Positions 37,708 to 60,629 of a stretch of 64,000 nucleotides of DNA are shown here, in pieces; position 1 is the stretch's first letter; every line of letters starts with the position of its first letter. Location of the stretch: the NCBI RefSeq assembly GCF_022829445.1, contig NZ_JAKSXY010000059.1:186001-250000 (forward strand), written 5' to 3'. Under the pieces are notes generated by a model. The model worked only from the letters and a program-made list of their open reading frames with translations. It had not been told where the DNA came from and made no database searches. The stretch is from Methylobacterium sp. J-068 (GTDB taxonomy: Bacteria > Pseudomonadota > Alphaproteobacteria > Rhizobiales > Beijerinckiaceae). The position numbers and the translations under genes were made by a program.

Positions 37708-38034
37708 ATGCCACCGCTTCCCTGGAGCCCGATGCACACGGCCCCTTCGGTCGCCGACCGGGTCTGGCTCAACCACCTCACCCTCGGCCCGATCCTGGCG
37801 GAAGGCCGGCCCGGTCGCTGGTACGCTCCGAGCGCGGCGCGTCAGGTCTGGCGCTGGTACCGGCCGGCGGGGGCGGAGGCGCTGGAACCCTTCAGCGGCT
37901 GGCTTCCGTTCGAGGCCCTGGCCGTGGAGCAGGCCGGCGAGGAAGCGCCGGCCGAAACCGATCCGTTCGGCGGCCTCAGCGGCGCGCGTCCGTCGCCATC
38001 CGGACGGCGAGCGCCGCCAGCGCCGTTCCCATGA
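37708..38034 (+). CDS. Small hypothetical protein downstream of oxlT
   Basis: 108 residues beginning MPPLPWSPMHTAP after CAGGAGTGCCCG. The middle VWLNHLTLGPILAEGRPGRWYAPSAARQVWRWYRP is tryptophan-rich and the C-terminus is Pro/Ala/Ser-rich. It overlaps the 3' end of the convergent lysE-like gene by 59 bases; the overlapping tail may be shorter in reality. I do not recognise it. Codon use and the ribosome binding site support translation. Confidence 0.5.
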   Translation: MPPLPWSPMHTAPSVADRVWLNHLTLGPILAEGRPGRWYAPSAARQVWRWYRPAGAEALEPFSGWLPFEALAVEQAGEEAPAETDPFGGLSGARPSPSGRRAPPAPFP

Positions 38035-38608
38035 TCCAGCGCTGCACGACGGCGAAGGACGGGCGCCTAGTGAGGAACAGCGCGATCGAGCCCGCCGAGA
38101 TCGCGATGGCGGCATTGACGAGGACGCTGATGACGATCTGCGTCATCCCCAGGACGAGGGCCTGACCCAGCACGCCGCCCTGGGCCGGTTCGATGAATTG
38201 CGGCAGCAGCGACAGGTACAGGACCGCGATCTTCGGGTTCAGGAGATTGGTCAGGAATCCCATGAGGAACAGCTTTCCCGGCCCGTCCTTCGGCAGGTCC
38301 CGGACCTGGAAGGGCGAACGGCCGCCGGGCCGCACGGCCTGCCAGGCCAGCCAGAGCAGGTAGAGCGCGCCTCCGATACGGATCGTGTCGTAGGCATAGG
38401 GCACGGCGAGAACGAGTGCCGTCAGGCCGAAGGCGGCGCAGGCCATGTAGAACACGAAGCCGAGGGCGACGCCGCCAAGGGAGATCAGGCCGGCCATCCG
38501 CCCCTGGCAGATCGACCGCGAGATCAGGTAGACCATGTTGGGTCCCGGCGTGAGGACCATTCCGAGCGCGACGGCGGCGAAGGCGATCAGGTGGCTGGCG
38601 TCTGGCAT
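37976..38608 (-). CDS. LysE/RhtB-family amino-acid exporter
   Basis: A 210-residue membrane protein with about six helices. The family N-terminus MPDASHLIAFAAVALGMVLTPGPNMVYLISRS and the GFLTNLLNPKIAVLYLSLLPQFI motif are clear. It exports an amino acid or derivative; the substrate is open. The start at 38608 has AGGGA upstream. Confidence 0.92.
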   Translation of the reverse strand: MPDASHLIAFAAVALGMVLTPGPNMVYLISRSICQGRMAGLISLGGVALGFVFYMACAAFGLTALVLAVPYAYDTIRIGGALYLLWLAWQAVRPGGRSPFQVRDLPKDGPGKLFLMGFLTNLLNPKIAVLYLSLLPQFIEPAQGGVLGQALVLGMTQIVISVLVNAAIAISAGSIALFLTRRPSFAVVQRWIMGTALAALAVRMATDARR

Positions 38609-38837
38609 CGTGCATCCCTGCTTCTCGGGAGGATGCCCAGACGCGCGGCGGAAACGCCGTCGCGCTCCCCGATGGTGGCCCATCACAAGCGTCAGTCACG
38701 CGTGGCGACGCTCATCGTAGCGATCCCGGTCCCGGCCTGTAAAGCCTGCCGGACATGGGCCGACCGGACATGGAGCCTCGGGCCAGCATCGGTCGGCAGG
38801 TCGGCGGGCATCCGCCGAACCGCGATGAGACCGAATG

Positions 38838-58323: not shown

Positions 58324-58628
58324 GGCGGGGATTCCTTCCTGTTTTTCTTGGCTTGTGCCGATTATTTCTGGCGGACGATCACCGCCGGACCGCGTTCGGT
58401 CCGCATGCGAAGCTAGGCGGGGAACCGCGCAGGGCAATGCGCGCCGCGTGAACCGGCGGCGCGCGAGACCATAAACAATCCGTGACACGGCCCCGGTCCT
58501 CGGAATGCGCGGCGGCGGCCCAAGATGGTCTGCCTTGTCAAGCCGGCATCCAGGGTCTACCAAAGCCGCCTCCGCAACCGCTCGCGCGTCGCATCGACGC
58601 GCCGTTGCCCTTCCGGGAGAGACGAGCC

Positions 58629-58770
58629 TTGGCCAGCGCCGGCTCCACGCGCAGCACCGCCGACGCCGCTTTCGCGGCCGCTCGGTCGCGCGCGTCTCTT
58701 CGCCCGCTGCTTCTCCTTAGCCGCCCCTGAGGGCCGTCCGGGCGCGTGCGCCTGGGCTCTCAGGGGTTTG
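58629..58770 (+). promoter_or_regulatory. Probable leucine attenuator (leader peptide and hairpins) of leuA
   Basis: A short ORF from TTG 58629 (GGGAGAGACG upstream) to TGA 58728-58730 ends in SLRPLLLLSRP, with four leucine codons in a row (CTG CTT CTC CTT at about 58706-58717). At the stop codon CCCCTGAGGGCC starts a stem (58724-58735) whose partner (GGGCTCTCAGGGG, 58755-58767) lies 20 bases on, followed by TTTGCC. This layout is that of an amino-acid attenuator. The rest of 58324-58628 shows no gene. Confidence 0.6.
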
Positions 58771-58873
58771 CCTCTCCGCGAGACCCGCGACGGCCGCTCC
58801 GCGCCGCCGGGCTCCCCCGACGACAAGGGCGCCGCTTCCCCGCGAGGGACCGCGCCGCGACAGGAATATCCCC

Positions 58874-60451
<1,578 letters not shown>

Positions 60452-60553: not shown

Positions 60554-60629
<76 letters not shown>

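Follow-up and report, generated by a model that had tools for sequence, protein, structure and literature searches.

The leuA locus

The window, i.e., the whole 64,000 nt stretch of Methylobacterium sp. J-068 DNA that was analysed, carries leuA preceded by a short leader ORF and a hairpin. The features are listed below.

58615..58621, + strand: Shine-Dalgarno (SD) sequence of the leader ORF, GGGAGAG, seen in the sequence; a strong SD is likewise present in 103 of 106 genus leaders
58629..58730, + strand: leader ORF of 33 codons, with a TTG start (58629-58631) and a TGA stop (58728-58730)
58707..58718, + strand: four consecutive Leu codons (ctg, ctt, ctc and ctt), a stretch that in relatives pairs with the leuA SD region
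58723..58767, + strand: conserved hairpin with the leader stop codon (58728-58730) in its 5' arm, identified from structure, covariation and covariance models R1 and R2
58862..58865, + strand: leuA SD core AGGA, which in this genome is a weak candidate for pairing with UCCU 58714-58717
58874..60451, + strand: leuA, encoding 2-isopropylmalate synthase (525 aa), by NCBIfam and Pfam matches

The leader ORF translates as LASAGSTRSTADAAFAAARSRASLRPLLLLSRP followed by the stop; the first codon is printed as L and would initiate as Met. The peptide ends in four consecutive Leu residues followed by Ser-Arg-Pro-stop. The original prediction of a short ORF with four consecutive Leu codons near its stop, upstream of leuA, agrees with the codons at 58707-58718. 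The leuA product scores 681.2 bits against TIGR00973 leuA_bact (cut-off 598.7) and 866.1 bits against NF002087 (cut-off 729), and has the Pfam domains HMGL-like and LeuA_dimer.

A tRNA-Lys gene (CTT, 60554-60629, + strand) is directly 3' of leuA, and a tRNA-Leu gene (CAG, 1521-1605, - strand) is at the opposite end of the window. The window also has a ZMP/ZTP riboswitch at 38628-38709 on the - strand (Rfam RF01750, 52.9 bits). It overlaps the start region of a 236-aa ORF (37976-38686, - strand), which by eye looks like a LysE/RhtB-type exporter.

The leader in the genus

A leuA match of some kind is found in all 111 genus genomes. The number of genus loci compared is 109, with G024 (no close leuA) and G110 (cut at a contig end) omitted. 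Comparison of these leuA leaders bears out both parts of the predicted element: a run of at least three Leu codons is present in 104 of the 107 loci that were oriented, family members included, and the hairpin is found in 109/109 genus loci, in L069 only by a looser pattern. Among these 104 Leu-run loci, the ORF at L124 has probably arisen by chance.

The leader start is TTG (62) or GTG (41), and never ATG, in 103 of 106 genus leaders, each behind a strong SD with an energy of -6.5 or better; in L031, L038 and L090 no start codon with a strong SD was found. The TTG at 58629, which had been proposed as the leader start, conforms to this pattern. Genus leaders start 31–37 codons before the stop, with one at 46. 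The 33-codon leader of the window is long by usual standards, as had also been noted. Internal leader indels among 24 close relatives are of 3 or 12 nt, as expected for a translated sequence. From the conserved start, SD and frame we infer that the leader ORF is translated.

Single-sequence folding energies are ordinary for such GC-rich DNA, both for the leader (z +0.97) and for the hairpin region (z -1.21). The case for the element therefore rests on comparison.

The hairpin at the leader stop codon

The lower stem of the hairpin consists of positions 58724-58735 paired with 58755-58766, with one internal G-U pair (58732-58758), and is closed by an additional G-U pair, 58723-58767. After a 3-nt bulge an upper stem is formed by 58739-58744 and 58749-58754. 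The 12-pair stem with a single G-T pair described originally is thus present, except that it begins four bases before the stop codon and not at the stop codon itself.

In a class alignment of 100 sequences, which was fitted to the model and so leans towards the hairpin, 92.5% of hairpin cells are paired. There are 206 double changes compared with a shuffled mean of 70.3, and none of 500 shuffles is as high. When the partner is shifted by 1–3 columns in the same alignment, pairing falls to 34–57%. A family alignment that was built without structure shows 96.4% of cells paired, with 14 double changes versus 3.2 in shuffles. The stop codon itself takes part in these changes. In 18/100 sequences the stop is TAG or TAA, with A and not G as its middle base, and the opposite arm has U. 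In 3/100 the last codon is CTC in place of CCC and the partner G becomes A. These changes are matched on the opposite arm, i.e., the pairing is maintained and the residue is not.

The distance between the Leu codons and the hairpin is constant in the class alignment, where a gap in columns 10–29 is found in 1/100 rows; the search models presuppose this spacing, and leaders with other spacing may be missed. In a set of 165 leaders, one of them with TGG where the stop is expected, 161 have CTT and 4 have CTA as codon -4, and the Arg codon CGA replaces Leu at codon -5 in 14. Codon -2 varies (CGC, TGC, AGC, GGC, AAC, CAC or TAC), and the last leader codon is Pro in 163/165.

The tetranucleotide CUUA, which consists of the last Leu codon and the next base (58716-58719 in the window), is near invariant: CU is present in 100/100 sequences, the second U in 95 and the A in 99. 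Its conservation seems to exceed what coding or SD pairing would need. A second conserved stretch, GGCGC...GCGCC, is seen by eye just 5' of the SD in the window's clade; it was not recovered by RNAalifold.

Distribution and the gene that follows

Covariance model R1 was made from 45 genus and family leaders and spans the last Leu codons and the hairpin. It matches 130/160 genomes of the order and 75/385 of the class, and the broader model R2 matches 82/240 class genomes; these counts are lower bounds, with strict filters and few candidates scored, and genomes that do not match may lack leuA or have a diverged leader. In a phylum sample of 249 genomes (class members included, their share not given), this same class accounts for all 42 matches. 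There is one convincing copy in the window's genome, where the next match has an E value of 1.2.

Gene content was determined for 161 model loci (L138-L298), which include the window and some genus genomes. A bacterial-type leuA is present in 152, a yeast-type isopropylmalate synthase gene in seven (L209, L211, L215, L216, L228, L230 and L232) and a cupin gene in two. The element is 5' of the gene and in the same orientation in those of the 161 loci that were inspected for this. The yeast-type assignment rests on L211, whose enzyme scores 709.4 bits against TIGR00970 (cut-off 697.4), and on L216, with 697.3 bits, just below the same cut-off, and 773.6 bits against NF002991 (cut-off 455); both proteins are cut at the locus end. 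The five others were assigned by match to L211. That the element is kept beside another form of the enzyme speaks for a role in leucine control, as opposed to simple co-inheritance with one gene. At L169 and L180 (genomes G381 and G609) the element precedes a small cupin gene (Pfam Cupin_2), and leuA lies 3' of this gene in the same orientation. This cupin may have a part in leucine metabolism or its control.

At L209, L211 and L216 the stretch before the yeast-type gene (GGCTAA(A)GAG, GGCTGACGAG) resembles by eye a partner of the Leu run CTCCTTAGCC.

The leader set

The final set consists of 272 leaders, 174 of them non-redundant, and analyses were performed on 173 (spacing of at least 60) or 165 (spacing of at least 85). 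Among the first 137 loci, L124 and L128, which are without the hairpin by the patterns used, and L039, L055 and L080, which have weak leuA anchors, were dropped, as was L093, which has no start. L040 and L110 represent one genome. Class loci were then added: 27 of the first 30, with the omission of L138 and L139, which repeat genus genomes, and of L161, which is like L160, and 114 of the 126 later loci (L168-L293), which passed the stop and anchor filters; those omitted from the later loci include yeast-type leuA, cupin and contig-edge cases. A script was used to assign the leuA starts, with a few errors (L023, probably L164).

Predicted pairing between Leu run and leuA SD in the class

In several species complementarity between the Leu-codon stretch and the leuA SD region was first seen by eye. 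For long stretches RNAduplex gives energies of -13.7 to -50.5 kcal/mol, which have little meaning in GC-rich DNA, and a test of own versus swapped partners was used instead. In this cognate test the duplex of each leader with its own leuA SD is compared with those formed with the SDs of other species, as a residual from the row and column means. Leader positions -27 to -6, counted from the stop, tested against leuA -28 to 0 give a residual of -1.72 kcal/mol with Z -9.4 and none of 20,000 permutations as extreme (n = 173 non-redundant leaders), the loci being related by descent and the permutations blind to the tree. A longer leader stretch, -48 to -6, gives Z -6.8 with the SD region.

Controls are much closer to zero. 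Leader positions -48 to -27 against the SD give Z -1.7. In same-organism controls, Z is -0.4 for the upstream leader against the SD, -1.3 for the Leu run against leuA +3 to +31, and -1.3 for the Leu run against leuA -58 to -30 (139 leaders). In a grid scan of 165 leaders with 110 window pairs, the strongest signal is at leader -24 to -10 and leuA -18 to -4 (Z -8.8). Elsewhere in the grid most cells lie between +1 and -3, with values down to -5.1 further upstream in the leader against leuA -24 to -10. The signal is maintained when the genus is removed (144 leaders, Z -8.1) and below 60% identity (116 leaders, Z -8.3, 0/20,000). Against GC-matched partners, a leader's own pair is better in 111/167 cases (p 3e-9).

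Contiguous Watson-Crick helices of at least 8 bp are present in 31/173 leaders compared with 3.6% when SDs are swapped, and they occur in more than one register; helices of at least 7 bp are found in only 48/173. Examples are UCCUUCGACU/AGUCGAAGGA in L162, UCCUUUCGCU/AGCGAAAGGA in L174 and UCCUUAUCAG/CUGAUAAGGA in L264. L162 and L174 are informative in that their Leu run contains Arg or Ser codons, and these too have complementary bases next to the SD. In partition-function folds the Leu run pairs with some base of leuA -24 to -3 at a probability above 0.5 in 137/173 leaders (79.2%), versus 62.5% with swapped SDs. The gain is clear, on a background that is high, and some pairing is to be expected in any case from the resemblance of CUU and CUC to an anti-SD. 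These comparisons show that the Leu-codon run coevolves with the leuA SD region across the class.

Predicted pairing in the window and in its genus

In the window the match is limited to 4 bp, UCCU 58714-58717 with AGGA 58862-58865. This pairing is present in the minimum-energy fold of 58629-58873 and is absent in the three other stretches folded. The pairing probability between the Leu run and the SD is at most 0.086 for any base; with more of the leader included, that of the SD core is 0.0, and a local GGA/UCC hairpin takes 0.45. Since the SD match is of only 4 bp, the window's SD may be hidden in another way.

When only the 33 nt upstream of the leader stop are folded, at least one base of leuA -24 to -3 has a probability above 0.5 in 11 of 25 close relatives (L001-L025). 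With 105 nt upstream folded, the probability for the SD core exceeds 0.3 only in L003 among the 19 close relatives listed and exceeds 0.5 in 6 of 16 other genus loci listed; it reaches 0.9 in 9 of 10 loci from other genera, a selection made partly for strong helices. Over the genus, 70/105 leaders exceed 0.5 with their own SD versus 55.0% with SDs swapped within the genus. A genus-only grid of 50 leaders gives Z -3.4 at best for these windows, and values of -3.7 and -4.5 are found elsewhere. This modest gain at the genus level slightly lowers our confidence in translational control, and for the window's own copy that mechanism is inferred by homology with the relatives.

Terminators and alternative explanations

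The original prediction was of a leucine attenuator in which downstream GC-rich arms could form an alternative terminator. The leader with its Leu run and the conserved stem are supported, and the part that corresponds to classic transcription attenuation is not. No terminator-like site is present in the window between 58400 and 58900. In related leaders such sites occur between the leader stop and leuA at the frequency of shuffled sequence: 7/164 compared with 6.0 in base shuffles and 7/165 compared with 8.4 expected from dinucleotide shuffles. Beyond the hairpin only, there are 4/165 versus 3.2 in shuffles. Such scans would miss terminators that have no U tract. Five or more T residues in the 8 nt 3' of the hairpin, whose end was set by a rough pattern, are found in 5/164. 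The stretch between the hairpin and leuA is, by eye, not conserved across the class. The distance from the leader stop to the leuA start has a median of 120 nt (10th–90th percentile, 93–143 nt).

In classic transcription attenuation the hairpin would act as an antiterminator or pause, and a downstream GC-rich stem would terminate unless a ribosome stalls at the Leu codons. As in trp-type attenuators, regulatory codons in the leader are combined with a stem at the leader stop, and a short T run is present 3' of the hairpin in some relatives (L072, L076). A Rho-independent terminator has been described for ilvBN in Caulobacter, also an alphaproteobacterium, according to the portion of PMC4117421 available. 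Yet the terminator-like sites that this explanation needs are not in excess in related leaders and were not detected in 58400-58900, and we consider it unlikely. A Rho-dependent variant, in which release of the ribosome would expose the untranslated stretch to Rho and a stalled ribosome or the hairpin would block loading, accords with the lack of any excess of intrinsic terminators and with the length of that stretch, which by eye is C-rich in the window. It could add to translational control, but it leaves the coevolution of the Leu run and the leuA SD unexplained and is likewise improbable as the explanation.

The hairpin could instead bind a regulatory protein or belong to a peptide-arrest system, with the Leu run being secondary. 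The conservation of the hairpin base and of CUUA seems to exceed pairing, and for the LEU element of Actinobacteria the part of PMC1262725 available proposes that it binds a protein. The apical part of the hairpin varies, however, mostly with compensation, and the peptide end is not conserved save for the Leu run and the last Pro, so this explanation is given a low probability. CUU A followed by a stable hairpin also resembles recoding sites, with the hairpin as stimulator of a programmed frameshift. Against this, the +1 frame is open to leuA in 71/173 leaders (0.410 versus 0.421 shuffled) and the -1 frame in 53/173 (0.306 versus 0.268 shuffled), and a frameshift is very improbable.

Proposed mechanism

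Translational control is the better reading than a terminator. That the coevolving partner of the Leu run is the leuA SD points to control of translation initiation. With moderate confidence, and on comparative grounds, the element is read as a leader-peptide attenuator, presumably responsive to leucine, that most likely acts at the initiation of leuA translation. Leucine supply would be the natural reading of the controlling cue. Translational attenuation is the simplest model that gives every part of the element a role.

When leucyl-tRNA is plentiful, a ribosome would pass the Leu codons, terminate and depart. The Leu-codon stretch would then be free to pair with the leuA SD region, the hairpin forming a bridge between the two, and leuA would be poorly translated. 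When leucyl-tRNA is scarce, the ribosome would stall on the Leu codons with its footprint over the SD-pairing stretch; the leuA SD would be freed and leuA translated. A ribosome covers approximately 15 nt in each direction from its decoding site. One whose A site holds codon -6 would cover the SD-pairing stretch and end short of the hairpin. The hairpin, located five bases past the last Leu codon, may also slow the ribosome over the Leu codons.

A wider proposal is put forward tentatively, as possible rather than probable. The element would be a widespread alphaproteobacterial translational attenuator in which the Leu codons serve as an anti-SD that slips in register, e.g., leader -20 to -13 or -14 to -5, and so tracks a drifting SD. 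The stop-codon hairpin would be a roadblock that poises the ribosome over CUU, and the module would stay with isopropylmalate synthase despite another enzyme type or an inserted cupin gene. If true, much of a large bacterial class would share a common RNA switch for leucine synthesis made of simple parts, and the identity of a conserved region 5' of leuA would be explained. It would also represent a case where a leader peptide governs initiation of translation of a biosynthetic gene and not termination of transcription.

Relation to known systems

The element is like the trp and leu attenuators of E. coli in having a leader peptide with codons for the end product. It differs in that no terminator/antiterminator pair or U tract was detected and in that the partner is the SD of the structural gene. 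In ermC and other antibiotic-resistance genes, a ribosome stalled in the leader unmasks the SD of the next gene, and stalling is induced by the drug. A stalled leader ribosome would unmask an SD here as well, whereas the cue would be uncharged leucyl-tRNA.

The closest described system that was found is the actinobacterial LEU element, which is likewise located 5' of leuA. As described in the available part of Seliverstov et al. 2005 (PMC1262725), it has a leader peptide with a Leu run, Leu codons proposed to pair with the leuA SD, and a pseudoknot; that text deems a mechanism based on leader translation unlikely and proposes a binding protein. Both elements have a Leu-run leader before leuA and a run proposed to pair with the leuA SD, here on evidence from the class as a set, and other attenuator elements are said in the same text to be missing there. 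The LEU element as presented there has its pseudoknot in the base stem and belongs to Actinobacteria, whereas the core of the present element is one hairpin that holds the leader stop just past the last Leu codon, in another phylum. The plan of the two is similar, and a resemblance, not homology, is proposed. The uORFC-8-2 motif at cysS in Rhodobacterales, from what is available of PMC8632094, has Cys codons and a stem that would fit an intrinsic terminator. Like the present element it is an RNA motif of an alphaproteobacterial leader in which regulatory codons stand in tandem; in the element described here the codons are Leu and no terminator was detected. The same available text does not mention leuA.

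Among the matches listed in open-access full text, seen in part, no report of an alphaproteobacterial leuA leader was found, and we do not claim that it is unreported. The 2004 work of Vitreschak and colleagues may already list a leuA leader. An ilvB leader peptide is given as known in the accessible portion of Corbino et al. 2005 (PMC1273637), which cites Vitreschak et al. 2004. As far as the matches listed from their text go, leuA is not mentioned in two ribosome-profiling studies, of Sinorhizobium (PMC10117765) and of Caulobacter (PMC4117421).

Rfam 15 gives no match at the element in the window at the gathering score. At a permissive threshold (E up to 10) one match was obtained in 58500-58900, on the other strand, and was rejected as chance. 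A search of 20 related loci gave one tRNA and nothing at the element. The covariance models presented here find the element from sequence alone and could become a family entry.
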